Source of the DNA: Collinsella aerofaciens ATCC 25986
Lineage (GTDB): Bacteria > Actinomycetota > Coriobacteriia > Coriobacteriales > Coriobacteriaceae
DNA: 64,000 bases
Direction: 5' to 3'
Assembly (NCBI RefSeq): GCF_010509075.1
Contig: NZ_CP048433.1
Coordinates: forward strand, 2,356,001 to 2,420,000
Part shown: one piece after another, positions 20,486 through 57,075 of the stretch
Position numbering within the stretch: the first letter of the stretch is position 1
How the letters are laid out: each line of letters opens with the position of its first letter
Position numbers and translations under genes: made by a program
The notes under the pieces: generated by a model
Seen by the model: the letters and a program-made list of their open reading frames with translations, nothing else
Databases searched by the model: none
What the model was told of the DNA's origin: nothing

Positions 20486-20532
20486 ATTGGTAGGTCGTTA
20501 CAATGGTTACGGTGAAAATGACGGGGGGCTCT

Positions 20533-39533: not shown

Positions 39534-40306
39534 TGGGCGCCGTCGCGGAGGGTAGCCCCTCGATCAGGGCGCAGGCGAACCTCTCCGCGCTCGGGCTGCA
39601 CGAGATGGCGGCGTCCCTGCCCGACTACGTGAGGATGGTCGCCGCGGGCGAGCGGGGCTTCGCCTCCGCCCTCGAGGAGATGACGCGCGTCGAGGTCGCC
39701 GCCCGGGAGGTCAGGATTACCAGCCAGCGCATACGGTCGTCGGGGTTCCCCTACGTCAAGGGGCTGGCGGACTTCGACTGGGACTTCCAGCCGTCGGTCC
39801 CGCGCGCCGAGATCGAGGAGCTCGCGACCCTGAGGTTCGTCGAGCGGGCCGAGAACGTCCTGTTCGTGGGGAGCCCCGGCGTGGGCAAGACGCACCTCGC
39901 CGTCGCGCTGGGCATCGAGGCGGTCAGGGCGGGGCGCGAGGTCAGGTTCGTGGACTGCGCCCGGCTCGTCGAGGACCTGGAGGACGCCTCGTCGCGCGGC
40001 ATCCTCAAGAAGAGGCTCAAGTACTACGCCCACTCGAGGCTGCTGATCATCGACGAGCTCGGCTACCTCGACGTCGGTAGCGCGGGCGCGGACCTGCTGT
40101 TCCAGCTGATATCGACGCGCTACGAGCAGCGCTCGACGATCATCACCACCAACGTGGGGATCAGCGGCTGGGGCAGGGTGTTCGGGGACGACGTGGCGGC
40201 GAGCGCGATCGCGGACAGGGTGTGCCACCACTGCCACCTGGTCAAGATAACGGGCAGGTCCTACAGGCTGAAGGACCTGCCGAGGGACGGTCCCGTCAAG
40301 CCGTGA
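39533..40306 (+). CDS. istB: IS21-family helper ATPase IstB
   Basis: The 257-residue AAA+ protein has Walker A GSPGVGKTH and Walker B LLIIDELGYL, and starts with the short ANLSALGLHEMA helix typical of IstB. It assembles on DNA and selects the target for IstA. The ATG at 39533 overlaps the istA stop and follows GGAGGGGCG; the open frame upstream belongs to a shadow of istA. Confidence 0.92.
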   Translation: MGAVAEGSPSIRAQANLSALGLHEMAASLPDYVRMVAAGERGFASALEEMTRVEVAAREVRITSQRIRSSGFPYVKGLADFDWDFQPSVPRAEIEELATLRFVERAENVLFVGSPGVGKTHLAVALGIEAVRAGREVRFVDCARLVEDLEDASSRGILKKRLKYYAHSRLLIIDELGYLDVGSAGADLLFQLISTRYEQRSTIITTNVGISGWGRVFGDDVAASAIADRVCHHCHLVKITGRSYRLKDLPRDGPVKP

Positions 40307-42560: not shown

Positions 42561-42610
42561 ATAACAAGGTCAGACTAATACCAGATTGAATGGCTTAATA
42601 AGGTCAGGTG
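42561..42610. promoter_or_regulatory. PdxR-type operator, two direct repeats
   Basis: AAGGTCAG occurs at 42566-42573 and again at 42600-42607, 34 bp apart in the same orientation, preceded by AT-rich AATAAC and TTAAT. Direct repeats between pdxS and a MocR gene are the normal PdxR site design. Confidence 0.6.
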
Positions 42611-42618
42611 ATAGGCTC

Positions 42619-44058
42619 ATGCTTGACTACAATTTGGAAAAACGCGGCGAAGCATCGCTTTATGAGTATGTTTACCAGAAAATTCGAGATGATATTGTTG
42701 CTGGACGTATTGCGGCGGGGGAGCATCTTCCGTCTAAGCGCGCCTTTGCCAGTCATCTGGGAATCAGTGTCATTACCATCGAGAATGCATATAGCCAGTT
42801 ACTTGCCGAGGGCTATATTTGCTCAATGCCGCGTCGTGGCTACTACGCTTGCGAGCTTCCGGATGCACCGGTTTTGGCTTCGGCTGCGGAGGGCATCGAC
42901 CGAGATGCCGCCTCTGCGGGTCCCAGCGCGCATGATGTCAACGGACAGGTCGAGCGATTCGATGCACTTTCTCCTTCCGCTTTGGAGGCGGCGCGGCTTT
43001 GGCAAAGCGCACTACGGGCGACGCTGGCATCCGAAGATGAGCGCGAAATCTTTTCGCCCGCACCGGCGCAGGGCACCGCTCGGCTGCGACGCGCAATTGC
43101 TCACCACCTGCGTGGGACAAGGGGCATGAATGTCGATCCCAATAACATTGTTATCGGCGCGGGCGCCCAGCTGCTCGATACCATGTTGGTTCAGTTGCTT
43201 GGCGCTGACAAGGTGTATGCCGTTGAGGACCCGGGCTATTTACGTCTGACGCGCATCTATCAGGCTATGGGCTGCAAAGTTCGACATATCCCGTTGGATG
43301 ATGAGGGCGTGGACTTGAGCGCTCTGCAGAAAACCGGGACCGATGTACTTCATCTGATGCCGTCCCATCAGTATCCGACCGGCCTTGTGACGAGCATTGC
43401 GCGGCGCTATGCGCTTCTGAGCTGGGCCGCCGAGCGACCAGGTCGGTATCTCATCGAAGATGACTTTGATTGTGAGTTTCGCCTTGCCGGGAAGCCGATT
43501 CCCGCGCTCGCGTCGATCGATGCCGCCCAGTCGGTTATCTACACCAACACGTTTTCGAAGAGCCTTTCATCGGCGTTGCGTTTGGCGTACATGGTGTTGC
43601 CCGATGAGTTAATGGAGCGGTTTAGGCGCAACCTTGGTTTCTACGCCTCGTCGGTGAGCTCTGTTGATCAGGTCGCTTTGGCGCGTTTGCTGGAATCGGG
43701 TGATTACGAGCGACATGTGAACCGCGTGCGCGTTCGTGCTCGCGAGGCGCGTGATGGCCTGATGGCGCTTGTGCGGAAGGTATTTCCGGCAGGAGAGGTC
43801 TCGATCGAGCATGCAGACGCGGGCCTTTACTGTATCGTGGTTGCGGAGCGTGGAGCGGGCGGAAGCTCTTTTGTGCGGGCCCTCACGCGCTCGAGTATCC
43901 CTTTTGTCGATATCAGTGACTGTTATTGGTGTGCCGATGGCGCATCTGTCCCTGAAAACTCAAGTCAAATTCTTGTTCAGTATGACGATTTGAGTCCAAA
44001 AGCGCTAAATACCTTGGAATCGCAGCTAATGGGAGCACTCTGCAACCTAAGTGAGTAG
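42619..44058 (+). CDS. pdxR: MocR-family regulator PdxR
   Basis: The 479-residue protein has a GntR-type winged helix (KIRDDIVAGRIAAGEHLPSK, LGISVITIENAYSQL) and a fold-type I aminotransferase-like domain. The PLP lysine lies in TNTFSKSLSSALRLAYMV. PdxR senses PLP and activates pdxST. ATG 42619 is preferred over an ATG at 42586. The final codons CTA AGT GAG TAG are supplied by a 122-bp repeat, so the original C-terminus was probably different. Confidence 0.9.
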   Translation: MLDYNLEKRGEASLYEYVYQKIRDDIVAGRIAAGEHLPSKRAFASHLGISVITIENAYSQLLAEGYICSMPRRGYYACELPDAPVLASAAEGIDRDAASAGPSAHDVNGQVERFDALSPSALEAARLWQSALRATLASEDEREIFSPAPAQGTARLRRAIAHHLRGTRGMNVDPNNIVIGAGAQLLDTMLVQLLGADKVYAVEDPGYLRLTRIYQAMGCKVRHIPLDDEGVDLSALQKTGTDVLHLMPSHQYPTGLVTSIARRYALLSWAAERPGRYLIEDDFDCEFRLAGKPIPALASIDAAQSVIYTNTFSKSLSSALRLAYMVLPDELMERFRRNLGFYASSVSSVDQVALARLLESGDYERHVNRVRVRAREARDGLMALVRKVFPAGEVSIEHADAGLYCIVVAERGAGGSSFVRALTRSSIPFVDISDCYWCADGASVPENSSQILVQYDDLSPKALNTLESQLMGALCNLSE

Positions 44059-44168
44059 GCTTTTGGAACTTTGGCGACCAGGCAGTTTTGTAACAAGCTA
44101 TCTACCTGCGGTTTTGAAAAGCAGGATGACCGGGCTGCTCGGGATGTTCAAAAAAGTCTACTCACTTG
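44047..44168 (+). repeat. Long-hairpin element, copy A (122 bp)
   Basis: It starts CTAAGTGAGTAGGCTTTT and ends AAAAGTCTACTCACTTG, with an internal TACCTGCGGTTTT. The ends are inverted complements and more pairing continues inside. Its first bases encode the last residues and stop of PdxR. Copies B and C share length, ends and core. Confidence 0.85.
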
Positions 44169-44349
44169 TCGCGCAAAGCTTCTGCATGAGAAAAAATGGG
44201 GTTTTCAACAGAACTTCGTCCAGCTCTCGGCAAGCTTTTGGCCAGTTGGGGAGGGCTGTTGAAAACTTGGCAGTCCGTTCGGCACCATTTTTGGCGCGTT
44301 CGCGCCAATGCGTGACTGACTGGGTTGAAATTCGTGTTTTCCTGTGCCT
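44169..44349 (+). other. Spacer between copy A and the AbiEi/DUF559-like gene
   Basis: No gene is visible. It contains an 11-bp perfect inverted repeat GTTTTCAACAG (44201-44211) and CTGTTGAAAAC (44256-44266) and presumably the promoter of the following gene. Confidence 0.4.
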
Positions 44350-45477
44350 ATGAAAGATCTACTTTGTGACATATCGGCTTTTAGGTACTGGCGTTTGCCC
44401 CCTCAGGTCCGCGCTCTGTGTCCGCCGCTTCCACGACCGGAAGAAGACCGGCAGCGATATGATCTCGCCCGCAACCCGACGGCTGCGGTCGCGCTCGGTT
44501 TTCCGTTGTATACATTGGTTCAGACGAGAAACAAACGGACTTGTCCTACCAGCATTAGGCAGCGGCTGTTCCTTGGTGAGCCCCCCAGGGAATCCGTGCT
44601 GGAAACGGAGCATGGATTTTTGATTACGTCTCCTCTACTGACGGCATTCATCATGTCGCGGCATCTGACGGATCTTCAGCTTCTTTTGGTATTGGCGGAG
44701 ATGTGCGGCTTGTTTGCGGTGTGCGCTCTGCCGGCGGCACTTGAGGCGGAGCTTACGCGTGCAATTGATTCGGGCGCGATTTCGACAACGTTCGGTTGGG
44801 AGCGCTGCCCGTCCGAGGGCGGCACCGCCTCAAATTTATGGCGTCGAGACGCTTTGGTTTTGGGCGGAGACCTTGACCGTTTTTGTTCAGATGTTTGCGG
44901 GATGCGTTACGGCAATAGATTTATGGCGGTATCGCAACTCGTTCCATTGGGTGCCGCGTCGCCTTTTGAGGTTGAGGCGTATTTGTTGCTTGGACTGCCG
45001 CGATCCTTGGGAGGCGAAGGGTTTTGCGGCATAGAACTCAATGTCGAAGTGACGTTAAGCACAAGTGCTCGAGCGATTGTTGGAAAGTCCCGTGTGTATA
45101 TCGATCTACTTTTGTCTTCGCCGGACGGCAGACGACAGGTGGCCATTGAATGTCAGGGAAAGGCCTCGCACGGACGCGCAGGGGATGGCTTGCGTGACGC
45201 TGACCGCATGACGGCCCTTCAGGCCATGGGCTACGATGTGCTTCTCCTGACACACAGACAGATATCCGATGAGGATAGATTCCGCGCGATCGTTAAGGCC
45301 GTATACAGGATGCTCGATGCTGAATATCGTGATAAAAGCTCAGATGAGCAAAGGGCCGAGGCATTGCTCCGGTCTGAACTATTTGTTGACTGGACAAAAT
45401 TGGGAGTAATCGACGGAAAGATGCCCGCTAGACACAAAATGGCTCGATCGTGGACGGCTGCGGTTCTAAGTGAGTAG
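44350..45477 (+). CDS. Orphan AbiEi/DUF559-like protein with PD-(D/E)xK-type domain
   Basis: The 375-residue protein looks like an actinobacterial AbiEi-antitoxin/DUF559-type protein. The N-terminal half contains FLITSPLLTAFIMSRHLTD, resembling the VTSPxRTLxDLAR block. The C-terminal 120 residues have SPFEVEAYLLLG, a YIDLLL aspartate, the VAIECQGKASH strand and RDADRMTALQAMGYDVLLLT, which fits a Vsr/PD-(D/E)xK nuclease fold. No toxin gene is adjacent. It is bracketed by repeat copies A and B, and its last codons and stop (LSE-TAG) come from copy B. GTG 44344 and ATG 44350 are both possible starts. Family assignment is by pattern only. Confidence 0.6.
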   Translation: MKDLLCDISAFRYWRLPPQVRALCPPLPRPEEDRQRYDLARNPTAAVALGFPLYTLVQTRNKRTCPTSIRQRLFLGEPPRESVLETEHGFLITSPLLTAFIMSRHLTDLQLLLVLAEMCGLFAVCALPAALEAELTRAIDSGAISTTFGWERCPSEGGTASNLWRRDALVLGGDLDRFCSDVCGMRYGNRFMAVSQLVPLGAASPFEVEAYLLLGLPRSLGGEGFCGIELNVEVTLSTSARAIVGKSRVYIDLLLSSPDGRRQVAIECQGKASHGRAGDGLRDADRMTALQAMGYDVLLLTHRQISDEDRFRAIVKAVYRMLDAEYRDKSSDEQRAEALLRSELFVDWTKLGVIDGKMPARHKMARSWTAAVLSE

Positions 45478-45588
45478 ACTTTTGGCACTTTGGCGACCAA
45501 GCCGTTTTGCAACAAGTCATTTACCTGCGGCTTTATAAAGCAATATGGGTGGTGTGCTCGGCAAGTTCCAAAAAGTCTACTCACTTAG
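45466..45588 (+). repeat. Long-hairpin element, copy B (123 bp)
   Basis: It starts CTAAGTGAGTAGACTTTTGG and ends CCAAAAAGTCTACTCACTTAG. The pairing continues inward (ACTT on the left, AAGT on the right). It has the same orientation as copy A, 1,419 bp downstream. Confidence 0.85.
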
Positions 45589-45656
45589 TTTTTGACGAGA
45601 AGCCGATGCCGAAGGCGGTCCTATTTCAGGGCGTTAACAAGTTCGTGAGGCACGAA

Positions 45657-45685
45657 AAAGGCCCGAACCAATACGGTCCGGGCCT
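45657..45685 (-). terminator. Rubrerythrin terminator
   Basis: AGGCCCGAACC (45659-45669) pairs with GGTCCGGGCCT (45675-45685); on the minus strand it ends in TTTTT. Confidence 0.8.
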
Positions 45686-45719
45686 CATCGAGCTTGAGGT
45701 TATGTCTCAGGCGGTTGGC

Positions 45720-46280
45720 TTAGCCAAAGTAGCGCTTGAGCAGGCCGGCGAAAGCCTTGCCGTGGCGGGCCTCGTCGCGAGCCATCTCGTGCACGGTGTC
45801 GTGGATGGCATCGAGGCCGGCGGCCTTGGCACGCTTGGCAAGATCGGTCTTGCCGGCGGTGGCGCCGTTCTCGGCCTCAACGCGCATCTCGAGGTTCTTC
45901 TTGGTGGAGTCGGTCACGACCTCGCCCAGGAGCTCGGCGAACTTGGCGGCATGCTCGGCCTCCTCGTGGGCAGCCTTTTCCCAGTACAGGCCGATCTCGG
46001 GATAGCCCTCGCGATGAGCGACGCGAGCCATGGCCAGGTACATACCGACCTCGGAGCACTCGCCCTCAAAGTTGGCGCGCAGGTCGGCAACGATGTCCTC
46101 AGAGACACCCTCCATCTTGGCGACGCCCACGACGTGCTCAGCGGCCCACTCGAGCTGGCCCTCCTCCTGCTTCAGGAAACGAGAACCGGGAACGCCGCAC
46201 TGGGGGCACTTAAAATCCTCGGGCAGCTGGTCGCCGTCGAACTCTTCCACATAACCGCAAACGGGGCAAACAAACTTCAT
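45720..46280 (-). CDS. Reverse-type rubrerythrin (NADH peroxidase)
   Basis: The 186-residue protein has an N-terminal rubredoxin domain (CPVCGY and CPQCGVP) followed by a ferritin-like di-iron domain. Glu/His motifs include [23 protein letters not shown] and [13 protein letters not shown]. This order is reversed compared with classical rubrerythrin and is typical of peroxide-detoxifying enzymes in anaerobes. ATG 46280 follows AAAGGATCGAATC. It acts in the cytoplasm and takes electrons from NADH through a reductase. Confidence 0.9.
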
Positions 46281-46536
46281 GATTCGATCCTTTCGATCGA
46301 TGGCGATTGCGCGCTCGTCCGGTCCCGTAAGGGCCCTCTCCGGACGTGCGTCTTGACGAGTTCTATTATCCATAAATGCAACCAAATGTGAAGCCTATTA
46401 GGAATGATTTTTAATAAAACAATTTTGAGATATGAAGATGTTGATTGATTAACGATTGGCAGGCCGTCTTTGACCGCCGCTGAGTACAATCGGGCGAGCA
46501 AATGTTGACCTATCAACAAATGAAGGAGTTTCCTTT

Positions 46537-47757
46537 ATGCATCTAGCCCGTCGTGCCTGGTGCCGAACATATCAGACGGTTTTTCGCATTGCATTGCCGA
46601 TCCTGCCCTATACCGAGCCGCGCATTTTAGAGCATGCCGAGGATGTGCCCGCGGTGCTTCAAAAGCGCTCGATCCAGAAGGTCCTTATCGTGACGGATCC
46701 CGGCATTGCCCGTCTGGGGCTCACGGCACCGCTCGAGACGGCGCTCGCATGCAGGGGGATTGGCGTTACGGTCTATGCCGAAACGCGTGCGAACCCCACG
46801 GTCTCAAACGTGGAAGAAGCGGCGTCCCTGTATCGAGAGCGCGCCTGCCAGGCCATTATCGGCTTTGGCGGTGGCTCGGCCATGGACTGCGCCAAGGGTG
46901 TGGGGGCGCGCATTGCGCAGCCAAACAAGCCCATCAATAAGATGCGCGGGCTGCTGCGGATTCATCGTCGTCTGCCGCTGCTCATTGCCGTTCCCACCAC
47001 GGCAGGCACGGGAAGCGAGGTCACGCTTGCGGCGGTAATTACCGATGACGAGACGCACTACAAGTACCCCATTAACGACTTTGTGCTTATCCCGCGCTTT
47101 GCGGTGCACGACCCTGAGTTTACGCGCGGTCTGCCCGCCTCCATTACGGGGCGGACGGGCATGGATGCCCTGACGCATGCCGTCGAGGCGTTTATCGGGC
47201 GAAGTACTACGCCCTATACGCGCAAGATGGCGCGACAGGCGGTGCAGCTCATCCACGACAATTTGCTCGAGGCCTATGAACATGGCGACAACATGCGTGC
47301 ACGTCGCAATATGCTTTCGGCTGCGTATAAGGCGGGCGTTGCGTTTACCCGCTCCTATGTCGGATATGTGCATGCCATCGCGCACAGTCTGGGCGGCCGA
47401 TACGGAATTCCGCACGGTTTGGCCAACGCGATCATCCTGCCGCACATGCTTCGCGCTTATGGTGACGCCGCCGCCCCCAAGCTTGCCGATCTTGCTCGCA
47501 TGGCGGGCATTGCGCCGGCTACCGCGCAGGACAGTCTTGCGGCCGAGGCCTTTATCGATTGGGTCGACCGCATGAACGAGGCCCTGGGAATCCCCAAATA
47601 TGTCTCGGGTATTCGCCGCTCCGATATTCCGCAAATGGCGGCCCATGCCGATGCCGAGGCCAATCCCCTGTATCCCGTTCCGCTTCTAATGGATCGCTTG
47701 GAGCTCGAGCATATGTACGAAGTCGTTGCGGGTGGTATGTTTGAGGGCGAGAACTAG
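46537..47757 (+). CDS. Iron-containing alcohol dehydrogenase
   Basis: The 406-residue protein has the NAD-binding FGGGSAMDCAKGVGA and VPTTAGTGSEVT blocks. The metal-binding part is GMDALTHAVEAFIG followed by VGYVHAIAHSLGGRYGIPHGLANAIILPHM, with Asp and three His. It reduces an aldehyde or oxidises an alcohol with NAD(P). The aldehyde dehydrogenase follows eight bases later, so the two probably act in one pathway between alcohol and acid. Confidence 0.9.
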   Translation: MHLARRAWCRTYQTVFRIALPILPYTEPRILEHAEDVPAVLQKRSIQKVLIVTDPGIARLGLTAPLETALACRGIGVTVYAETRANPTVSNVEEAASLYRERACQAIIGFGGGSAMDCAKGVGARIAQPNKPINKMRGLLRIHRRLPLLIAVPTTAGTGSEVTLAAVITDDETHYKYPINDFVLIPRFAVHDPEFTRGLPASITGRTGMDALTHAVEAFIGRSTTPYTRKMARQAVQLIHDNLLEAYEHGDNMRARRNMLSAAYKAGVAFTRSYVGYVHAIAHSLGGRYGIPHGLANAIILPHMLRAYGDAAAPKLADLARMAGIAPATAQDSLAAEAFIDWVDRMNEALGIPKYVSGIRRSDIPQMAAHADAEANPLYPVPLLMDRLELEHMYEVVAGGMFEGEN

Positions 47758-47765
47758 GAGGGTCT

Positions 47766-49145
47766 ATGAACACCGAGGAAATTGCGCGCATTGTCGGCGA
47801 TCAGCGCGCCTACTTTAAGACGCACGCCACGTTTGATGTCGATGCTCGACGTCGTGCGCTCGTGGGTTTACGCGATGCGGTGCGTGCCCATGAGGCCGAT
47901 ATTGCCCATGCGCTCAAGACCGATTTGGGAAAGTCGCATGACGAGGCCTATATGTGCGAGATCGGCACGTCGCTTTCCGAGATTCGACATCAGATCGCTC
48001 ACGTGGCTCGGTGGAGTCGTCCGCGCCTGCGTCCGTGCGATCTCGCTAACGCCGTGAGCGCGTGCAAAACGCAAGCCGTGCCCTATGGCGTCACGCTCAT
48101 CATGGCTCCGTGGAACTACCCGTTTTTGCTAACACTCGAGCCGCTCGCCGGCGCCCTTGCCGCGGGCAATACCGTGGTCATCAAGCCGAGTGCCTATGCT
48201 CCGGCATCGAGCGCGGTGCTCAAGCAAATCTGTGAAGAGGCATTTGATCCGCGCCTGGTGACGGTTGTCGAGGGCGGGCGCGCCGAGAACGAAGCGTTGC
48301 TCGATGAGTGCTGGGACAAGATCTTCTTTACCGGTAGCGTTCCGGTCGGCAAGCTCGTCATGGAGCGCGCAAGTAAAAACCTTACGCCCGTGACGCTTGA
48401 GCTGGGCGGAAAGAGTCCCTGTATCGTGGATGCGACGGCAAACTTGAAGGTTGCGGCACGGCGTATCGCCTTTGGTAAGTGGCTCAACGTGGGGCAGACC
48501 TGCGTGGCGCCCGACTACCTACTGGTCGATGCGCGCGTGCACGATGAGCTGCTGGACCTTATCAAGGAGGAGGCCCGCCGTATGTTTGGCGAGCATCCGC
48601 TCGATAACGAGGATTACGGGCATATCGTCAACGCCAAGCATTTTGCGCGCGTGCGCGGGCTGATCGATCCCGATAAGGTCGTGCTTGGAGGCACCGCGCG
48701 GGAGACTTCGCTGAAGATCGAGCCGACGATTTTGGACGGCGTGACCCCCGATGACGCCGTGATGCAGGAGGAGATCTTCGGTCCCATCTTGCCGGTGCTG
48801 ACGTTTGAGAGCCTAGACGAGGCCGAAGCGTTTATTACGGATCGTCCGACGCCGCTGGCTCTGTATATCTTTAGCCAGGATCGCGCAGTTCAGCAGCGCT
48901 TCGTGCGTTACGTGCCCTTTGGCGGCGGCTGCGTCAACGACACGATTATGCACTTGGCTACGAGCCATATGGGCTTTGGTGGCATGGGTGCGAGCGGTAT
49001 GGGGCAGTACCATGGACGCGAGAGCTTCGATACGTTTAGCCACAAGAAGAGCATCGTGAACAAGGCAACGTGGCTGGACGTGCCATTCCGCTATGCTCCT
49101 TACGCAAGCTGGAAGCACAAGTTCGTGCGCATGTTTGTGCATTAG
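47766..49145 (+). CDS. Aldehyde dehydrogenase, class 3-like
   Basis: The 459-residue NAD(P)-dependent enzyme has APWNYPF, NTVVIKPSAYAPASSAV, FFTGSVPVGKLV, the catalytic Glu in TLELGGKSPC and the catalytic Cys in GQTCVAPDY. The length and lack of an N-terminal extension match class 3 family members. Its C-terminus is short and basic rather than clearly membrane-spanning. The ATG follows AGGAGGGTCT. It is the second gene of an operon with the alcohol dehydrogenase. Confidence 0.9.
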   Translation: MNTEEIARIVGDQRAYFKTHATFDVDARRRALVGLRDAVRAHEADIAHALKTDLGKSHDEAYMCEIGTSLSEIRHQIAHVARWSRPRLRPCDLANAVSACKTQAVPYGVTLIMAPWNYPFLLTLEPLAGALAAGNTVVIKPSAYAPASSAVLKQICEEAFDPRLVTVVEGGRAENEALLDECWDKIFFTGSVPVGKLVMERASKNLTPVTLELGGKSPCIVDATANLKVAARRIAFGKWLNVGQTCVAPDYLLVDARVHDELLDLIKEEARRMFGEHPLDNEDYGHIVNAKHFARVRGLIDPDKVVLGGTARETSLKIEPTILDGVTPDDAVMQEEIFGPILPVLTFESLDEAEAFITDRPTPLALYIFSQDRAVQQRFVRYVPFGGGCVNDTIMHLATSHMGFGGMGASGMGQYHGRESFDTFSHKKSIVNKATWLDVPFRYAPYASWKHKFVRMFVH

Positions 49146-49153
49146 AAAAGGGC

Positions 49154-49191
49154 GCAGGTAATACGAACAAGTGTTCCTATTACCTGCATTT
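49154..49191 (+). terminator. Terminator of the dehydrogenase operon
   Basis: GCAGGTAATACGAACA (49154-49169) pairs with TGTTCCTATTACCTGC (49172-49187) with one mismatch, then ATTTT. Confidence 0.75.
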
Positions 49192-49250
49192 TGCGTTAGA
49201 CTACTGTTATGGAGCACGGATGGGCCAACTCCCTTTAGAAGGGATTTGGT

Positions 49251-49334
49251 ATGAACGTAAGCGATGTTATTTCGTTATTGGCGTTGTTGATTGCGGCTAT
49301 CGAACTCGGTCTGTTTATCGGCCGAATGAAATAG
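49251..49334 (+). CDS. Possible 27-residue holin-like type I toxin
   Basis: An ATG follows AGAAGGGATTTGGT and opens a frame for MNVSDVISLLALLIAAIELG followed by LFIGRMK. One hydrophobic helix spans residues 7-24 with a basic end. This is the design of the small holin-like toxins of Gram-positive bacteria. The downstream region holds short GC hairpins: GCCG/CGGC at 49334-49362, then GGCA..ACCCG with CGGGTGCC at 49394-49418. In type I systems these positions hold terminators or antisense RNA. It is isolated from any larger gene. Confidence 0.45.
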   Translation: MNVSDVISLLALLIAAIELGLFIGRMK

Positions 49335-49570
49335 CCGCCCCCGCGTAAGCGAAGACGGCCACTTCTCACGATGAAAACGTGTATCGGAGTTGGCAAGACC
49401 CGCGGCAACGGGTGCCATCCGTGTTCCTATCTTATCTGCAAGCGTTCTGTCGCGCAAGCGTTGAGGCAAACGATTGAAGGACGCAGACAGGATGTATTTG
49501 TGTCCGCATGGGACCGTAGACTTCTCAATAAGGTTACACACCGGTTTATCCGGCCGTTAGAGGAGCTGCT
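49335..49570 (+). other. Non-coding stretch between the small peptide and the HIRAN gene
   Basis: No convincing gene is visible. The first 85 bases contain the two small hairpins noted for the toxin candidate. The remainder leads to an AGAGGAGCTGCT ribosome binding site. Confidence 0.4.
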
Positions 49571-49897
49571 ATGTACGAGCCTTCACGTGTTCTTCTGTCA
49601 TTTCACATTGCAGGATTTCAGTATGCCGATGGCGCCTTGGTCCTGGGCGATCTTAAAGCGGGCGATAAGCTGACGCTGTGTGCCGAGCGCGATAATCCCC
49701 ATGACCCTGAGGTGGTTGCGATTTATTACGGCAACACCAAGCTTGGCTATGTTCCGGGAAACGAGGTCGGCCCGCTGTCCTTGATGATGTATTACGGCCA
49801 CGAGGACGTATTTGAGGCCCGCGTGCAACAGGTTGCCCCCGAGCGCAGCCCGTGGCATCAGGTGCGCGTTGGGCTCTATGTGGTGGATGCTCGCTAG
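49571..49897 (+). CDS. HIRAN-domain protein
   Basis: The 108-residue protein is almost entirely a HIRAN domain. It has FHIAGFQYADGALVLGDLK, the LTLCAERDNPHDPEVVAIYY block, and GYVPGNEVGPLSLMM. HIRAN domains bind DNA ends or stalled forks in larger proteins, while stand-alone versions are common in bacteria and poorly studied. The ATG follows AGAGGAGCTGCT. The next small gene begins 18 bases after its stop. Confidence 0.85.
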   Translation: MYEPSRVLLSFHIAGFQYADGALVLGDLKAGDKLTLCAERDNPHDPEVVAIYYGNTKLGYVPGNEVGPLSLMMYYGHEDVFEARVQQVAPERSPWHQVRVGLYVVDAR

Positions 49898-49915
49898 TCG
49901 GCAAGGGAGGCGGCC

Positions 49916-50095
49916 ATGTTTGATGACGACGACCTATTCAATCTGACAGACGATTCGTTTGAGTGGGATCTGCTACTCGATGACGATGAGTTGGAGCAGG
50001 ATCGTAGGAAACGGCAGGGCAAGAAAGCTCAGGGTGACGCTTCGAAAAAGCAAGACAAACGCCGTCGAGGTCTGTTCGGCGGGCTCTTTGGCTAA
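49916..50095 (+). CDS. 59-residue charged protein with GLFGGLFG end
   Basis: A GGGAGGCGGCC site precedes an ATG opening a frame for 59 residues. The first 29 are very acidic (MFDDDDLFNLTDDSFEWDLL), the middle is Lys/Arg/Gln-rich, and the end is RRRGLFGGLFG. No family is recognised. The spacing suggests co-transcription with the HIRAN gene. Confidence 0.65.
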   Translation: MFDDDDLFNLTDDSFEWDLLLDDDELEQDRRKRQGKKAQGDASKKQDKRRRGLFGGLFG

Positions 50096-50161
50096 CCGAC
50101 GCGCCAGAGCGTCTGTATACTAGGCACGTGTTAGACGCGTTGCGAAATGAGGACACAGACG

Positions 50162-50707
50162 ATGATGTGGTTTACCGCCGACCTGCACCTGGGCGATACG
50201 AATATCTTGCACGATATGGATCGGCCGTTTGATTCGGTCGAGGAGATGAACCGCAAGGTCATCGATGCCGTCAATGAGTGCGTAGCGGCGGACGACCGTC
50301 TCTATATCTTGGGAGACTTTACCTATCGTTTGCCCCTGGCGGAGGCGGTGCGCCTGCGCGAGCGTATCGAATGCCAGAACGTGACGCTCATTCGTGGTAA
50401 CCATGACGGCGACTGGGAAGATCCCGACGTACCGCAGATTTGGGAAGACGTGCGCGATTACCTGGAGATTGCTCCCGGTTACGCCAAAGGCCATCGCCTG
50501 GTAATGAGCCACTACCCCATGCTCAGCTGGAACGGCAAGGCACGTGGCGCCATTATGCTGCATGGGCATATCCACAGCAGGGGTGACCGCACCAACGCAC
50601 GCAACCGCGATCGCGAGCGTCCCATTTATCGCTACGATGTGGGCCTCGACGCCAACGACTACAAGCCCGTAAGCCGAGACCAGATCCTGAATTTCTTTGG
50701 ACTGTAG
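50162..50707 (+). CDS. Metallophosphoesterase (YfcE/MPE-like)
   Basis: The 181-residue protein has the calcineurin-like metal motifs in order: FTADLHLGDTN, YILGDFTYR, LIRGNHDGDW, MSHYPML and LHGHIHSR. These form a di-metal centre hydrolysing phosphoesters. The domain is minimal, with no membrane or extra domain. ATG 50162 follows GAGG at a good distance; ATG 50147 is also open. The substrate is unknown. Confidence 0.88.
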   Translation: MMWFTADLHLGDTNILHDMDRPFDSVEEMNRKVIDAVNECVAADDRLYILGDFTYRLPLAEAVRLRERIECQNVTLIRGNHDGDWEDPDVPQIWEDVRDYLEIAPGYAKGHRLVMSHYPMLSWNGKARGAIMLHGHIHSRGDRTNARNRDRERPIYRYDVGLDANDYKPVSRDQILNFFGL

Positions 50708-50715
50708 CTCGCAAA

Positions 50716-50741
50716 CCGCCACGAAGGGGACAGGCACCTTT
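50716..50741 (+). repeat. Left half of a palindrome split by the IS3 insertion
   Basis: CCGCCACGAAGG then GGACAGGCACCTTT ends at the insertion. The missing right arm TTTGTGGCGG lies at 52206-52215 beyond the element. Rejoined, they form a hairpin of the GGGACAG family. Confidence 0.65.
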
Positions 50742-50786
50742 TGAACTGCGTCCCGAATCTTGGCCTTCTTTTATTAGAAGCGAACA

Positions 50787-51698
50787 CTAGGACGCTTTCA
50801 ATAGCCGTTTCCGAAACTCCACCGGGGTGAGGCCGCCGAGCGCCACCTGGCGACGCCTCGTGTTCCAATGCACGACGTAGGCGTCGAGGTCCCTCTTGAA
50901 GGACTCGAAGTCGGCCCACTCGACGCCCCTGAAGAACTCGTCCTTGAGATGCCCGAACACCTGCTCCGTCGCCCCGTTGTCTAGGCAGTTGCCCTTTCTC
51001 GACATGCTCTGCCTGGCGCCGTGCCTCCTGAGCTCGCCGGTCCACCTAGGGTGCTGGTACTGCCAGCCCATGTCGCTGTGGACGATCGGCGAGGCCCCGG
51101 CCGGCATTCTCGCGAACAGGCGCCTGAGCACCTCCTCCTGCTGGGCCATGTCCGGGCTCGTCGACACCGACCAGGAGACGATCTCCTTCGTGCAGAAGTC
51201 GTAGACCGGGGCGAAGTACGCCTTGCCCCAGGGCTGCCTGAATTCCGTGACGTCGGTCCCGAGCTTCTCCCACGGGGCGCCCGCGCGAAAGTCACGCGCT
51301 ATCAGGTTGTCGAATCTCTCGCCGACCGGGCCGCGGTAGGAGTTGTAGCGATGGTAGTCGGTCTCCCGGCGGATGCCGCAGCGGATGCCGAGCTCCCGCA
51401 TCATCTTGAGGACCGTCTTGTCCGCTATCCTCGCGCCCAGCTCGGCCCTCAGGCACATCGCTATCTGGCGGTGGCCGCACCCGTTCGCCGTCCTCGAGAA
51501 GATCTCGCGCACGGCCTCCCGGAGCTCTGGCCGGGTCGCTCTCGGCGGGTGCGCTACGGCATAGTGGTAGCTCGACGGCGCGAGCCGCGCGGCCGCGAGC
51601 AGGTCGCATAGGCGGTGGTGCCCTGAAAGGGAGGCTACGACCTGGGCTTTCTCCCAGTTTGAGAGCTCTTCTCCGCTTTCAGGGCTATCGATTTTTTT
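50787..51698 (-). CDS. IS3-family transposase, orfB part (frameshift product)
   Basis: This frame encodes about 303 residues of the catalytic half. It has an HTH region (LREAVREIFSRTANGCGHRQ) and an rve integrase core with LGTDVTEF, IVHSDMGWQYQ and the final Glu in NGATEQVFGHLKDE. It has no evident start of its own. It is expressed by a -1 shift at A-AAA-AAA (51692-51698), giving a junction AYLKKIDSPE between orfA and orfB. Confidence 0.85.
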   Translation of the reverse strand, partial: KKIDSPESGEELSNWEKAQVVASLSGHHRLCDLLAAARLAPSSYHYAVAHPPRATRPELREAVREIFSRTANGCGHRQIAMCLRAELGARIADKTVLKMMRELGIRCGIRRETDYHRYNSYRGPVGERFDNLIARDFRAGAPWEKLGTDVTEFRQPWGKAYFAPVYDFCTKEIVSWSVSTSPDMAQQEEVLRRLFARMPAGASPIVHSDMGWQYQHPRWTGELRRHGARQSMSRKGNCLDNGATEQVFGHLKDEFFRGVEWADFESFKRDLDAYVVHWNTRRRQVALGGLTPVEFRKRLLKAS

Positions 51699-52144
51699 AG
51701 ATACGCCACCTGGGCCTCGAGTTTGCGCACGCGCTCCTCGAGCTCCCGCTCGCGCGTCCGCCCCCCGGGGCCCTCCGGCCTGCCGCGGCGTCCCGGCTCG
51801 AGCGCCTCCGGCCCGCCCTCGCGGTACAGCCTGCACCAGCGGTCGAGCGATGTGGCGGCGGCGATGCCGAAGCGGGCCATCGCCTCCGACCGCGGCATCC
51901 CCTCGTCCACGACGGCCCTCGCGACGGCGAGCTTGGTCTCCATGTCGTAGGTCCTGCGGCTCTCGCCCATCCCGATCAGCCCCTTCCTCCCGGTTGCCCG
52001 GTACGCGTAGAGCCATTTTCTCACCGCCGGGGCGGGAACGTCGAGCTTCTTGGCCGCGAGTTCGAAGCCGAGGCCGGCCTCGAACAGGTCGGCGGCGCGT
52101 GCCCTCATCTCGCGACCGTATCTTGCCTTCTTCCTGCGGGGCAT
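51635..52144 (-). CDS. IS3-family transposase, orfA
   Basis: The 169-residue protein has two helix-turn-helix units (FELAAKKLDVPAPAVRKWLY and RSEAMARFGIAAATSLDRWC) and a C-terminal leucine-zipper-like coil (RELEERVRKLEAQVAYLKK), as usual for the IS150 group. The ATG 52144 follows GGGAGGCATCGGAA. The open frame continues upstream opposite the DUF2130 gene but that part is an antisense shadow. Confidence 0.87.
   Translation of the reverse strand: MPRRKKARYGREMRARAADLFEAGLGFELAAKKLDVPAPAVRKWLYAYRATGRKGLIGMGESRRTYDMETKLAVARAVVDEGMPRSEAMARFGIAAATSLDRWCRLYREGGPEALEPGRRGRPEGPGGRTRERELEERVRKLEAQVAYLKKSIALKAEKSSQTGRKPRS
51692..51698 (-). promoter_or_regulatory. Programmed -1 frameshift site of the IS3
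   Basis: Seven consecutive A residues on the minus strand read CTA-AAA-AAA in the orfA frame, giving the canonical A-AAA-AAA slippery heptamer. A shift leads straight into the orfB frame. Confidence 0.75.
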
Positions 52145-52312
52145 TTCCGATGCCTCCCTTTTCTCGAACCTTAATTTCAAAGTCCAAGAAATGGGATGCA
52201 GTTCATTTGTGGCGGTTCTGGCGCCGTTGCCATTCTGGCAGCGGCGCCTATTTTGTCCGCGCGGCGCGGTAGAGTGTAGCCGGTTGATATTTGCGTCCAT
52301 CGAGGAGCTGCT

Positions 52313-54070
52313 ATGAACGAGATCAAGTGCCCGCATTGCGGCGAAGTTTTTAAGGTCGATGCATCCGGCTATGCGGATATCGTCAAGCAGGTGCGCGATG
52401 CCGAGTTCTCGCGCGACCTGGATGAGCGTGTGAAGGCAGTCCAGCGTGAGGGTGAGCAGGCGCTGGAGCTTGAGCGCTCGCGTTCGACGGCTGCCTTGCA
52501 ACAGGCAAAGTCTCAGCGCAATGCCCAGCTTGTCGAGCAGAAGAACACTGCGGATCAGAAACTGGCGCAAGAGGTTGCCAAGCGCGATGCTGAGCTTGCC
52601 GAGCTGCGCGCTAAGCTCGAGGGCGCTGCCGCAGAGCGCGAGAGTGCAAGCCGGCGTGCGGCGGTTGAGGCTCGTGCCGATGTCCAAAAGGAGAATGTGG
52701 AGCTCCAGCGCGAGATCGACAATTTGCGTGCACAGCTGGGACGCAAAGATGACGAAGCAAAGCTTGCCGAAGCCGCGGTACGCAATGCGACTCAAAATGA
52801 CCTCGCCGCGCGCGATGCTCAGATTGCGGAGTTGCAGGCAAAGCTTGCCGCCGCAGATAAGGCTCAAGAAATGGCACTCGCAACTGCTGCGGCCGAGGCG
52901 CAGCGTAAGCTCGAGGCTGCGCAAAACGAAGCGAATCGTAAGCTTTCCGATTACCAGACAGAAGTGCGTGAGAAGTTCTCGAATGCTAAGACTCAGTCCG
53001 AGCGCGAGGCCGAGGGCCTTCGTGCACAGCTTCGTGAGCAAGAACTTTCTGCAAAAATGGAGCTGTCGAAGGCGGTCGCCGCGGCGGAGCGAGAGCGCGA
53101 TGAGGCGCGTGCCAAACTGACGAGCGAGCTGGCGGTGCGCGATTTTCGCGAGGAACAGGTCAAAGCGGCACACGAGCTCGAGCTTGCGCAGGCCAAGCGT
53201 GCGAGCGATGACCTGATTCGCTATAAGGATGAAGAGATCGAGCGCCTTAAGGACATGAAGGTCCGCCTGTCCACCAAGATGGTGGGCGAGTCGCTCGAGC
53301 AGCACTGCGAGACCGAGTTTAACCGTCTGCGCATGACGGCGTTTCCTAACGCGTACTTCGAGAAGGATAACGATGCGTCCGAGGGCACCAAGGGCGACTT
53401 TATCTTCCGCGAGTGCGACGCAAGCGGTAACGAGGTCATTTCGATTATGTTCGAGATGAAAAACGAGAACGATGAGACCGCGACCAAGCACAAGAACGAG
53501 GACTTCTTTAAGAAACTCGACCACGATCGCCGCCAAAAGGGCTGCGAGTACGCGGTGCTCTGCACGTTGCTCGAACCCGAGAGCGAGCTTTACAACGCCG
53601 GCATCGTGGACGTGAGCTATCGCTACGAGAAGATGTACGTGATTCGCCCACAGTTCTTTATTCCCATGATCACGCTTCTTCGCAACGCCGCCATGGGTTC
53701 GCTTCGCTATAAGCAGGAGCTGGCGGAGTACAAACAGCAGAATATCGACGTTACGAACTTCGAAGCCAAGATGGAGAAGTTCAAGAATGATTTCGGCCGC
53801 AACTACGAGATCGCGAGCCGCAAGTTCCAAACGGCGATCGATGAGATCGACAAGACGATTAGCCACCTGCAGAAAACCAAGGAGGCGTTGCTGTCCTCCG
53901 AGAACAATCTGCGCCTAGCCAACAAGAAGGCGGACGATCTTACCATTCGCAAGCTCACGTGGGGCAACAAGACCATGAAGGCCGCGTTTGACGAGGCGCG
54001 CGGGGCTGCGACAGAGACAAACGATGAGCCAGCCGAGGCGGATTCGTATGAGGTCGAGGGTGCCGAGTAA
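52313..54070 (+). CDS. DUF2130 coiled-coil protein
   Basis: The 585-residue protein starts with a zinc-ribbon half ([13 protein letters not shown]). It continues with a coiled coil of about 300 residues rich in Ala, Glu, Arg and Gln. It ends in the DUF2130 domain ([73 protein letters not shown]). The DUF2130 core has a D...ExK pattern (GDFIF and FEMK) suggesting a nuclease-like fold. Function is not established. The ATG follows GAGGAGCTGCT. The IS3 ends about 107 bases upstream and may have altered its promoter. Confidence 0.85.
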
Positions 54071-54089
54071 GGCATAGCGTATAGCGCAA

Positions 54090-54127
54090 AAGCGGGGCCG
54101 CTGGCTATATTGCCAGCGGCCCCGCTT
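54090..54127. terminator. Strong bidirectional terminator
   Basis: A perfect 16-bp stem (54090-54105 with 54112-54127) lies between the convergent DUF2130 and helicase genes. Confidence 0.85.
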
Positions 54128-54149
54128 CGTTTCGTTCCAGTATGTTCGG

Positions 54150-56831
54150 CTAGTCCTCGAGCAGGTCCTCGATAAAGCCGACGCGGTAGTTTTTGAAGAT
54201 GACCTCGCCGCCGTCTTGCGTGGCGTCCAGATCGACATCGCCCATGATGCCAAAATCGTGGTCGCCATCCTCGTCGGCAAAGATCTGGTGCACGTGCCAT
54301 ACGTGCGCGGTCTTCTCGTCGGACTCGTCAATGGAAAACATCGCGGCGCTGCGGGCATCTCCGTCGGTGAGGATTTCCTCGTGCTGCTCGTGGTAAGCGT
54401 CGAGTGCTTTTTGCCAGCGGATCTCGCTCATGCCCCAGTCGTCGTCGAGCTCGCCCAGGTCGCGAACGTGCTCGCGGGCGGCAAGGGTCACGCGGCGGAA
54501 GAGCGCGTTGCGCACCAATAGCGTGCAGCCGCGACGGTCCGCCACGACCTCGTCGATGCCCTGCGGCGGCGCAGCATCGAGGGCTGTCGGGTTGCCGGCG
54601 TTCTCCCACTCATCCACCAGGCTCGAGTCCACCGAGCGCACCACAAAGCCCAGCCACGAGATAATGTCGCGCAGGCGCTCGTCGCGCTTCTCGATGGGCA
54701 CGGTGCGGTCGAGTGAACGGTAGGCCTCTGCCAGGTAACGCAGCAAAATGCCCTCGGAGCGGGCGATGCCGAGCTTTTGGATATAGCCCTTAAAATCGCT
54801 CGCGCTTTCCAGCATATCGCGCAGGACGCTCTTGGGAGAGAGCTGGTAGTCGTTGGCCCAGGGTACTTCCTGGCAGTACTTGTCGAAGGCGGCATCGAGC
54901 AAGTCCTCGAGCGGCTTTTCGTAGGTGACATCCTGGATGCGCTCCAGGCGTTCCTCATAATCGACGCCGTCAGCCTTCATTTCGGCCATCGCGCGGTCGC
55001 GCGCGGCGCGCTCCTGTGCGCGCAATACCTGCTTGGGATCCTCGAGCGTTGCCTCGACCATCGAGATCAGATCCATGGTATAGGTCTCGCTCTCGGGGTC
55101 GAGCAGCTCCAACGCGGCAAGCAAGAACGGCGAGAGCGGCTGATCGAGCGCGAAGTCCTCGGGCAGATCGACCGTCAGTGCATAGTCGATGTCTGGTGCG
55201 GCGTCAGTCGGGGCGTCGGGTGCGGGCGGCACCTCGGTGCGAACGACGACGCCGGAATCGATGAGTGTGGCGAAGATTTCATCGGCGCGAACCTCGAGCT
55301 TGGCCTTTTCCTCGGGGGTCTGCAGGCTCGTCTCGATGAGGTCGTGTACGCGGGCACGGGCGTCGCCGCCCTGCTCGACCACGCTAATCACCATGGAGTG
55401 CGTGATGCGCAGGCGCGGCTTGAGCGTCTCGGGTTGAGTCTCGATCAGGCGCTCAAAGGTCTGCTTGTTCCAGGTGACAAAGCCCTCGGGGGCCTTTTTC
55501 TTTTTAATCTTACGGAGTTTTTTGGGGTCGTCGCCCGCCTTGGCCATAAGCTTGGCATTCTCAATCTCGTGCTCGGGTGCCTCGGCAATCACCATGCCCT
55601 CGGTATCGAAGCCCGAGCGACCGGCGCGACCGGCAATCTGATGGAACTCGCGGGCGCGCAGACGACGCATCTTGTAGCCATCGAACTTGGTGAGCGCGGT
55701 GAGGACCACGGTATGGATGGGTACGTTGATGCCGACGCCGAGCGTATCGGTGCCGCAGATGACGGGCAGTAGGCCCTGCTGCGCCAGGCGCTCGACCAGC
55801 AGACGATAGCGCGGCAGCATGCCAGCATGGTGCACGCCGACGCCGCAGCCAAGCAAGCGCTTGAGGATCTTGCCAAAGGCCGTCGAGAAGCTCGTTCCCT
55901 TTGCCGCTTCTTTGATGGCCTCGCGCTGCTCTTTGCTGGCGATGCCAAAATTGGCGAGCGACTGTGCCGTCGCAAGGGCGGCATCCTGGCTAAAGTGCAC
56001 GATATAGAGCGGGGCCTCGCCGCGGCGCATGGCGAGCTCGACTGTGCCTTCGAGCGAGGTCGTCACATAGTCGTAGCTCAGCGGCACGGGGCGCGGGGCA
56101 TCGACGACCAAGTCGCAGGTAGCGCCGGTGTGTTCCTCGAGCGAGGCGGCGATCGCGGTGACATCGCCGAGCGTGGCGCTCATGAGCATAAACTGCGTGT
56201 GGGGCAGGGTGAGCAGCGGCACCTGCCAGGCCCAGCCGCGGTCGGGGTCGGCAAAGTAATGGAACTCGTCCATGGCCACGCAGCCCACATCGGCGTCCTC
56301 GCCCTCGCGCAGCGCATCGTTGGCAAGGATTTCGGCCGTGCAGCAGATGACGGGCGCCTTGGTGTTGATATGCGTATCGCCGGTGATCATACCGACGTTA
56401 TCGCGGCCGAGGACCTGCACCAGGTCGAAGAACTTTTCGCTGACCAGGGCCTTGATGGGGGCCGTGTAATAGCAGCGCTTGCCCTGCGCCATGCCCATAA
56501 AGAGCATGCCCAGCGCGACGAGCGATTTACCCGATCCGGTCGGTGTGCCCAAAATGACGTGATTGCCGGCTGCCAGGTCCATGAGGGCCTCTTCTTGGTG
56601 ATCCCATAGCTCAATGCCGCGGTCGCTCGTCCATTCAAAGAAGCGTTCGAAGGCCTGGTCGGGCGTGAGCCACGGTTCGGGCTCACTGCCGTCCTCGGGC
56701 TCCCACCAGGTGGGGGAGAGCGCACCGAGCGAACCGAACTCTGCCTCGGTTCCCGTGCCGCCCGAAAATGAGCTGGCAGCGCCGGCGCCGGAGACGGTGC
56801 TGGCGGCGGTATCTGTCGTGGTCTGTGCCAT
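54150..56831 (-). CDS. Superfamily 2 helicase, DUF3516/Ski2-like
   Basis: The 893-residue helicase has Walker A GTPTGSGKS, motif II MDEFHYFAD, motif III LMSATLG, motif V GTDTLGVGINVP and motif VI QIAGRAGRSG. All are in the N-terminal 450 residues, as in Ski2/Mtr4-like enzymes. The C-terminal half matches the DUF3516 region, with INTKAPV upstream and LRYLAEAYRSLDRTVP, DDWGMSEIRWQKALDAY further on. Related actinobacterial proteins are thought to unwind RNA or DNA. A disordered Gly/Ser/Ala stretch covers the first 30 residues. The ATG at 56831 has a moderate GAGAGAAAG site. Confidence 0.88.
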   Translation of the reverse strand: MAQTTTDTAASTVSGAGAASSFSGGTGTEAEFGSLGALSPTWWEPEDGSEPEPWLTPDQAFERFFEWTSDRGIELWDHQEEALMDLAAGNHVILGTPTGSGKSLVALGMLFMGMAQGKRCYYTAPIKALVSEKFFDLVQVLGRDNVGMITGDTHINTKAPVICCTAEILANDALREGEDADVGCVAMDEFHYFADPDRGWAWQVPLLTLPHTQFMLMSATLGDVTAIAASLEEHTGATCDLVVDAPRPVPLSYDYVTTSLEGTVELAMRRGEAPLYIVHFSQDAALATAQSLANFGIASKEQREAIKEAAKGTSFSTAFGKILKRLLGCGVGVHHAGMLPRYRLLVERLAQQGLLPVICGTDTLGVGINVPIHTVVLTALTKFDGYKMRRLRAREFHQIAGRAGRSGFDTEGMVIAEAPEHEIENAKLMAKAGDDPKKLRKIKKKKAPEGFVTWNKQTFERLIETQPETLKPRLRITHSMVISVVEQGGDARARVHDLIETSLQTPEEKAKLEVRADEIFATLIDSGVVVRTEVPPAPDAPTDAAPDIDYALTVDLPEDFALDQPLSPFLLAALELLDPESETYTMDLISMVEATLEDPKQVLRAQERAARDRAMAEMKADGVDYEERLERIQDVTYEKPLEDLLDAAFDKYCQEVPWANDYQLSPKSVLRDMLESASDFKGYIQKLGIARSEGILLRYLAEAYRSLDRTVPIEKRDERLRDIISWLGFVVRSVDSSLVDEWENAGNPTALDAAPPQGIDEVVADRRGCTLLVRNALFRRVTLAAREHVRDLGELDDDWGMSEIRWQKALDAYHEQHEEILTDGDARSAAMFSIDESDEKTAHVWHVHQIFADEDGDHDFGIMGDVDLDATQDGGEVIFKNYRVGFIEDLLED

Positions 56832-56952
56832 GTGTTTGCTTTCTCTCGCGATTGTCCGCCAACTATTATGGCGTAGCGGCGGCGTGGGGTGCCAGCGCGC
56901 GAGAAAATGCAGGAAATGGGCGTTCTGCCCAGCCGTTTAGTGTAGTCGCTAG

Positions 56953-57075
56953 CTAAGTGAGTAGACTTTTTGCGATATTGCGAGCACATCGCTTTTGCGC
57001 AAGGGTTCTACCTGCGGTTTTATGTTTCGCTATGCGGGCTGTGCTTGGCTATTGCAAAATAGTCTACTCACTTAG
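56953..57075 (+). repeat. Long-hairpin element, copy C (123 bp)
   Basis: It starts CTAAGTGAGTAGACTTTTTG and ends AATAGTCTACTCACTTAG, with the shared TACCTGCGGTTTTA core. The arms pair further inward (GCGATA..GC.AGCACA with TGTGCT..GCTATTGC), in different bases from copies A and B. It lies between the helicase promoter and the end of trmB. Confidence 0.85.

Follow-up and report, generated by a model that had tools for sequence, protein, structure and literature searches.

A probable family of REP/ERIC-like intergenic repeats in Collinsella and its relatives, with a core that is a target of an IS110-family element

Introduction

In REPs the repeat itself forms the end and the spacer can vary freely, with GTAG as a hallmark. 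The ERIC/IRU sequences of Enterobacteriaceae are imperfect palindromes of ∼127 bp that lie between genes and have no known transposase; MITEs are short, with terminal inverted repeats and no coding capacity; and the attC sites of integrons combine conserved outer boxes with a variable centre. Insertion of IS elements into REPs and attC sites is known from the available parts of PMC1525189 and PMC11187229.

The repeat described here is like the REP/REPIN-RAYT systems, as the accessible part of PMC2817692 presents them, in being intergenic, multicopy and palindromic, in having species-specific types and in serving as a target of IS110/IS1111 elements. It differs from them in having a conserved core and boxes in its middle, in a fixed geometry, and in its number, with 21 matches in its own genome where REPs usually exceed 100. 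With ERIC/IRU, compared by description, it shares its size, imperfect palindromy and intergenic position, but it has many end types around one core. Like the MITEs it is short and non-coding, with inverted ends common to the copies in a genome, whereas no cognate transposase was found, no target duplication was seen at the loci compared, and it is the interior rather than the ends that is conserved across species. Relative to attC the arrangement is reversed, with variable outer ends and a conserved centre.

In the literature on Collinsella and the Coriobacteriales, the supplementary tables of PMC8040213 aside, no description of such repeats, of the end 16-mer or of the core 12-mer was found; PMC8040213 and PMC7771070 deal with palindromic candidate RNAs and with insertion sites in general, and the portions of them available do not name the element. 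The repeat family, which occurs in Collinsella and related gut bacteria, is apparently undescribed, and the element is probably a new REP/ERIC-like repeat that is mobile but non-autonomous. Our preferred reading, to which we give a probability of about 0.55, is that these are palindromic, intergenic, non-autonomous mobile repeats of the order, REP-, ERIC- or MITE-like in kind, which are predicted to act as duplex sites for protein binding and whose core is a target of IS110 insertion.

Results and Discussion

Copies in the window

The window is the whole stretch of DNA that was analysed, 64,000 nucleotides from Collinsella aerofaciens ATCC 25986. Three copies of the element lie in it, each running from AAGTGAG to CTCACTT over exactly 119 bp; they share inverted ends of 16 bp and, at the centre, the core ACCTGCGGTTTT. 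Copy A (44049–44167, +) is at the 3' end of a GntR/aminotransferase (pdxR-like) gene (42586–44058). Its left terminal inverted repeat, AAGTGAGTAGGCTTTT, occupies 44049–44064 (+) and the right one 44152–44167 (−); the inner boxes are at 44075–44082 (+; element positions 27–34, CGACCAGG) and 44134–44141 (−; positions 86–93), and the conserved core, ACCTGCGGTTTTG (positions 56–68), is at 44104–44116 (+). Copy B (45468–45586, +) is at the 3' end of the open reading frame at 44344–45477 (+), with terminal inverted repeats at 45468–45483 (+) and 45571–45586 (−) and the core ACCTGCGGCTTTA at 45523–45535 (+). Copy C (56955–57073, +) has a trmB-like gene (57141–57980, −) on one side and a DUF3516 helicase gene (54150–56831, −) on the other; its terminal inverted repeats are at 56955–56970 (+) and, with one mismatch, 57058–57073 (−), and its core, ACCTGCGGTTTTA, at 57010–57022 (+) is the place at which the orthologous copy in genome G017 is split by an IS110-family element. 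The genes preceding A and B take their stop codons from these copies. The 377-aa reading frame that A and B flank gives a weak match to the nuclease model REase_MTES_1575, under the curated cut-off, and has no match in NCBIfam or PADLOC.

An earlier note on this DNA had described three copies of a long hairpin with shared ends and core, and these are real: the end pattern AGTGAGTAG-N85..114-CTACTCACT has three matches in the window and none in 100 shuffles. The element itself is 119 bp long, B and C reaching the 123 bp first given for them if the CT/AG outside is counted. The core TACCTGCGGTTTT is present in A, B and C, with one mismatch in B; searched for alone with two mismatches allowed it is not above chance, three occurrences being reached in 10 of 100 shuffles. 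All three copies fold better than shuffled sequences on both strands (z −2.4 to −6.4). A scan for terminator-like and promoter-like sites around A and B, the terminator part of which covers short loops only, found nothing at the elements, and copy B has no match in a phage collection.

Identity between the window copies is 82% for A and B, 65% for A and C and 71% for B and C, with spacer identities of 74%, 43% and 52% respectively. A and B lie 1.4 kb from each other and could well have arisen as a local duplicate pair. A single large duplication as the source of all copies, the case named at the outset as fatal to the idea, is ruled out by the A-C and B-C identities and by inter-class spacer identities of 38–48%.

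Members and geometry of the family

The exact end pattern yields five copies, A–E, in the host genome (2.46 Mb, three contigs), D (C1:884583–884701) and E (C1:2019712–2019830) having ends as in A–C. The strict pattern is matched in 22 of the 43 genus genomes, and a looser version finds 108 copies, spread over 22 of the family's 65 genomes and every one within the genus. A pair-aware model (R1) gives 114 matches of at least 95 bits in the genus, counted from the list, which puts the exact-pattern copies at ∼95% of class A–F copies.

Eighty copies, extracted from 59 loci and the window, sort by their shared flanks into classes A/B, C, D, E and F, and are 119 bp long in 75 cases, 118 bp in two and 120 bp in three. 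The constancy of length is taken from these 80 because the ungapped alignment A3 (47 copies; an earlier alignment, A2, minus the two unrelated rows L138 and L151) contains 119-bp copies exclusively. In A3 the ends occupy positions 1–16 and 104–119, the inner boxes 27–34 and 86–93, the left one reading GAGCAC or GACCAC, and the centred core, ACCTGCGGTTTTA, positions 56–68. Mean identity among class representatives is 96% in the ends, 92% in the core, 76% in the boxes, and 48% and 38% in the spacers. A phase-variable inverton was considered and is ruled out, the orientation of the core relative to the flanks being constant within every class across the 80 copies.

The nearest relatives of the copies are their neighbours, at 1.4 kb for A/B, ∼3 kb for D/D', ∼8.4 kb for E/E' and 4–14 kb for F/F', and the neighbour pairs inspected point in the same direction; class C is without a neighbouring partner. 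Copy number among related carriers ranges from 2 to 9, IS splitting and contig ends accounting for part of this, and copies only 27 bp apart exist in other genomes.

Base pairing and matched ends

From inner arm bases that differ between copies and stay paired, the earlier note had concluded that selection acts on a folded RNA or single-stranded DNA. Over 46 distinct copies, an ungapped hairpin of 35 pairs is 76.8% paired, a value as high being found in 481 of 500 shuffles. With the inner arm shifted by one base its pairing is 53.6% (0 of 500 shuffles as high) and its covariation score 0.257 against 0.162; on inspection by eye it is classes C and B alone that agree well. This signal counts for the earlier reading, but little weight can be put on five or six lineages. 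The inner-arm pairing first described for B and C is present in these copies; the compensation is not general over the 46. Within the C. aerofaciens complex, deviations of the ends from consensus affect one arm in 22 cases and both arms in one, so that gradual base-pair compensation is not seen there, and positions 30 and 90 form a C·C mismatch in 22 of the 46 copies. Rfam has no match for the elements in the window at gathering scores and, for seven loci at E up to 1, returns weak microRNA hits alone, far under the gathering scores. The statement that the element matches no REP is too strong, the element being REP/ERIC-like (intergenic, multicopy, palindromic and an IS110 target).

Elsewhere in the window there are a TPP riboswitch (Rfam RF00059; 20262–20372, −) and another long palindrome (ACCTGCCAAAAAGGGACAGGT...; 20394–20495). 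A palindrome of the ACCTGCCAAAAAGGGACAGGT type also lies beside E' in G001, G023 and G030, and one is an off-core IS110 target in G031.

More distant relatives were collected with R1, which includes the end pairs and favours palindromic ends. It scores in 40 of the 43 genus genomes, and a renewed search of 16 chosen from the 43 found relatives in all 16; its match counts, such as the 26 in G016, include both strands. The matches are mostly 117–123 bp long; seen outside this range were four of 128, 129, 129 and 140 bp and a partial one. Sixty were reduced to 52 by dropping seven second-strand duplicates and one weak match. The core is the same in these 52 (51 from other genomes), which have an inner box GAGTAGAC...GTCTACTC; their ends are quite different. 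Alignment A5 joins 49 of them to six copies from the C. aerofaciens complex, making 55 copies from 11 genomes. It contains 27 distinct left 10-mers, and comparison of end with end gives 27 mismatches in 660 positions. Its 16 end pairs are 93.3% paired against 57.4% in shuffles; double-changed cells number 300 against 82, and the covariation score is 0.90 against 0.22 when shuffled and at most 0.22 when slid, all of which are biased figures because the copies came from the pair-aware R1. The inner boxes are 80.4% paired against 74.9%, with none of 500 shuffles as high.

Because R1 holds the end pairs, a second model, R2, was built from the interior only, without pairs or ends, and trained on the interiors of the R1 finds. 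The matched-ends test used 34 of 36 R2 matches (30 loci; L274 was left out as near-identical to L273), seven of which had belonged to the R2 training set. In these copies, whose ends played no part in their selection, the two ends match in 34 of 34, each over at least 12 of 16 bases at a shift of 3 or less, with a mean of 15.15 bases and zero shift in 32; the 34 are not independent cases, since many have an end type in common. By the same rule, left ends set against the right ends of other genomes average 8.1 bases, and 126 of 1112 such pairs reach 12, for the most part owing to end types common to related genomes. Inside single genomes there are end subtypes with differences at two or three matched positions in both arms, as with TAGGGGAC/TAGAAGAC in G041 and AAATAGG/AAATGTG in G012. 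The arms are therefore kept matched far beyond the window, and between species the ends differ yet still match. Covariation, proposed as a check on the first description, is found in the inner arm, above shuffles, and between end types, but not in the ends or the whole hairpin among close relatives.

Paired half-sites of a DNA-binding protein would give the 22 to 1 ratio of single-arm end changes, the mismatch at 30/90 and the fixed spacer length. Taken together, the frozen type-specific ends with their single-arm deviations, the spacers whose length is fixed while their sequence is free, and the displacement of one box by 10 bp from one element type to the other (see below) fit a duplex complex better than a stem. 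The principal alternative is an RNA or single-stranded DNA hairpin, whose long stem would show the core loop to an RNA-binding protein or HUH-type enzyme, pairing being selected while the arms drift. We regard it as possible but doubtful. The pairing of ends between types, even if drawn from a biased search, the matched ends of all 34 copies found without them, the inner-arm and box pairing beyond every shuffle and the better-than-shuffled folding all speak for such a hairpin, as do the matched subtypes inside genomes; both these subtypes and the matched replacement of whole ends from type to type fit a hairpin, or else copying from arm to arm, of which template switching is a form. It accords poorly with ends that are frozen (96% identity) within the species complex and depart from consensus in one arm at a time, with the C·C mismatch, with unpaired spacers of fixed length and with the lack of an Rfam match. 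The one-armed changes, the 30/90 mismatch and the fixed-length unpaired spacers mean that selection on a folded RNA or single-stranded DNA is not singled out, and we favour double-stranded protein-DNA recognition over a folded RNA, ranking duplex recognition first and the hairpin second.

A second type, solitary cores and distribution

Six of the 21 R2 matches in the host genome belong to family 1, namely A–E and one at C1:1184959. Twelve (L306–L317) represent a second, longer type, whose ends read, for example, CAAAACTATGCCGGTTTACTACG and whose box is GACCAT...ATGGTT; the last three (L318–L320) are partial and hard to assign. The arm-to-arm span of the second type is 150–162 bp in ten copies and 132 bp in L306, the right arm being lost in L311. 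The second type is just as rigidly spaced: its end motif lies 55 bp from the core in 12 of 12 copies (at most one mismatch allowed) and its core 53 bp from the right motif in 10 of 11 (54 bp in the other), with the left box at −38 and the right box at +30 in 11 of 12 each. The family 1 boxes start at −28 and +31; relative to these, the left box of the second type is displaced outward by 10 bp, roughly one turn of the helix, and the right box lies within 1 bp of its family 1 position. The second-type copy in L309 has no match in a plasmid collection.

The 12-mer ACCTGCGGTTTT occurs 22 times in the genome, 6 times on the forward and 16 on the reverse strand, and its reversed control does not occur. 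Sixteen occurrences are in the copies above, one is in apparent coding sequence and five are solitary. One solitary core (L345, G000 C1:1957710) lies beside what appears by eye to be part of a tRNA (ACCTGCGG...CCGCAGGT), which recalls an integrase attachment site. Upstream of E' (L069/L031/L076), in the extra sequence of the filled locus, is a second core without ends (GTTTTACCTGCGGTTTTTATAAAATC in G023).

Copy numbers in the R2 distribution survey are lower bounds, because at most 15 candidates were scored per genome. At E 0.01 or better R2 matches 169 of 297 genomes of the order Coriobacteriales, including all 43 of the genus and 63 of the family's 65 (counted from the list); outside the family the matches are mostly weak, about ten genomes being better than 1e-6. 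A phylum-wide draw at 0.001 gives matches in 16 of 296 genomes, 13 of them in the order, and the three outside are partial and near 7e-4. By this sequence-only model the repeat is sparser in the order outside the host's family. Against named genomes, the exact pattern has 112 matches in 96 stretches, 98 of them with the core and all of these in records of Collinsella (C. aerofaciens and other Collinsella). Thirteen core-less matches in other bacteria are simple repeats of the AGTGAGTAGTGAG type or unrelated palindromes and were set aside, as was a single unrelated match in a viral contig; the fourteenth core-less match is a Collinsella copy with a changed core.

Gene setting and presence or absence

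Gene context was read with an in-house gene caller based on codon usage, which overlooks atypical genes, among them the reading frame at 44344–45477. None of the 21 matches in the host genome lies in a called gene; 11 are between tandem and 6 between convergent genes, 4 are unclassified and none is between divergent genes; of the window's 41 intergenic gaps, 12 are of the divergent kind. The 52 diverged copies lie between tandem genes in 28 cases, convergent in 15 and divergent in 8, with one unclear.

Copy A, the 377-aa reading frame and copy B are jointly missing in G001 and G005. There the pdxR-like gene continues to a stop codon of its own, some dozen bp short of the next terminator-like palindrome, and its last ∼200 bp also differ. 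E' is missing in G000, G007 and G025 along with ∼250 bp beside it, the loci differing by ∼366 bp, and C is missing in G011 inside a longer deletion. An empty C site in G017 was wrongly called, C being present but split by the IS110 element. The comparison of empty with filled sites that the earlier note had proposed gave no clean 119-bp difference, excision or target duplication at the E', D', A/B and C loci.

That the element is instead an immobile regulatory or architectural site of the host, such as a bidirectional terminator, a protector of mRNA 3' ends or the site of a chromosome-organising protein, seems to us unlikely. Such a site would account for the shared flanks, fixed length and strong conservation, for the position beyond gene ends and, in several classes, between converging genes, and for the stop codons supplied by A and B. 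It would not lead one to expect copy numbers that vary from 2 to 9 between related carriers (in part because copies are split by an IS or cut off where a contig ends), the many types of end within a genome or copies 27 bp apart, and the short-loop scan scored no terminator-like site at either A or B.

Insertion sequences in the core

In G017 the IS cuts copy C between ACCTG(C) and GGTTT. Its left end has 22 matches in six of 42 genus genomes, and the left flanks place 20 of these 22 insertions inside an element core, which by eye, on the left half, is of the AAGTGAGTAG type in four, the AAGTGCGGGG type in one and the second type in 15. The left flank of the two off-core insertions ends in TTTCCTG. 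Right flanks are readable in five, all GGTTT, many matches being at contig ends. The coding sequence of the copy in G025 matches DEDD_Tnp_IS110 (PF01548) and Transposase_20 (PF02371). The conserved core is a precise insertion target of this IS110-family element. The left non-coding end of the IS contains CACTGACCTGCTG and, beyond a short stem, CAAATCCGACC; these two segments appear to resemble the core halves, in the orientations that a bridge RNA would need, with one base of the second half misfitting.

A second IS, with a Mutator-type transposase (PF00872), is inside copy A in G023. The second-type copy L311 (G000 C1:1412166) is cut by apparently the same Mutator-type IS, judged by its end sequence, and both insertions are ∼20–30 bp beyond the core. 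By eye, two reading frames of the window resemble those of other IS elements, an IS21-type helper ATPase (39431–40306) and an IS3-type transposase (50787–52187).

The IS110 insertions, in which an element with a DEDD transposase gene of the IS110 family uses one position in a repeated palindrome, are like the IS110/IS1111 insertions into REP and attC sites for which ISPpu9, ISPpu10 and ISPa11 (PMC1525189) and ISPa11, ISKpn4 and IS621 (PMC11187229) are the examples. They differ in that the target here is the centre of a Collinsella repeat family.

Y1 transposases

Y1_Tnp genes are present in 52 of 64 family genomes, with four in the host genome. Twenty Y1 loci from 10 genomes, chosen from more than 100 matches, were read with 1.5 kb flanks, and an associated transposase, which the first description had proposed looking for, was not found among them: no R2 element adjoins any of the 20 except for one chance-level match at E 0.1. 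Six of the loci, in genomes other than the host's, carry other palindromes, of GGGGAC or GTCCC type, which are perhaps a separate REPIN system. Three Y1 genes of G000, L373, L371 and L372 (C1:673928, 706838 and 809643), are RAYT-sized at 282, 282 and 348 aa, with no inverted repeats listed beside them. Seven genomes (G014, G016, G022, G024, G042, G044 and G046) have at least 15 R2 matches each and no Y1_Tnp match.

The conserved core of the element sits in its middle, unlike the free spacer of REPs. That the element is a REPIN, a REP doublet with its ends as REPs, driven by a RAYT (Y1 HUH) transposase, is the weakest reading and highly improbable, for although Y1_Tnp genes are widespread, CTAC/GTAG tetranucleotides occur in the ends and boxes and IS insertion into REPs is known (PMC1525189, available part), the 20 loci do not show a RAYT gene flanked by two inverted copies of the element, six of them carry other palindromes, and a RAYT is not present in seven genomes where the repeat abounds.

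Proposed mechanism and implications

The reading that we prefer is that the element is a mobile, double-stranded protein-DNA site. A putative type-specific recombinase or transposase would bind the half-sites at both ends, and a conserved partner may bind the inner boxes and core, whose spacing, on this proposal, would be fixed because they are so bound. Copies would spread rarely and locally and then be inherited, and the IS110 element would exploit the abundant core as a landing pad. Several points count against a mobile duplex site. No enzyme sharing the ends was found, nor a clean empty site with a duplication; the matched subtypes of two or three bases within genomes are what a hairpin constraint would explain directly; and the inner-arm covariation, the folding on both strands and the position of 8 of 51 classifiable diverged copies between divergent genes are also contrary.

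A more speculative proposal, which we put forward tentatively, is a new kind of mobile or architectural repeat of the order, in which core and boxes, spaced with helical rigidity, would form one nucleoprotein platform. Its matched ends would be exchangeable, with at least 20 types, each presumably having its own recombinase; its cores would be landing pads for RNA-guided IS110 elements; and it could mark a cassette boundary, with A, gene and B coming or going together.

Collinsella and related bacteria are common inhabitants of the gut. Occupied by IS110 in 20 of 22 insertions, the core offers a natural and readable set of targets for RNA-guided recombination. Ends that match but can be exchanged, set around a middle that is rigid and conserved, raise a well-defined question, whether the ends are protein half-sites or a hairpin.
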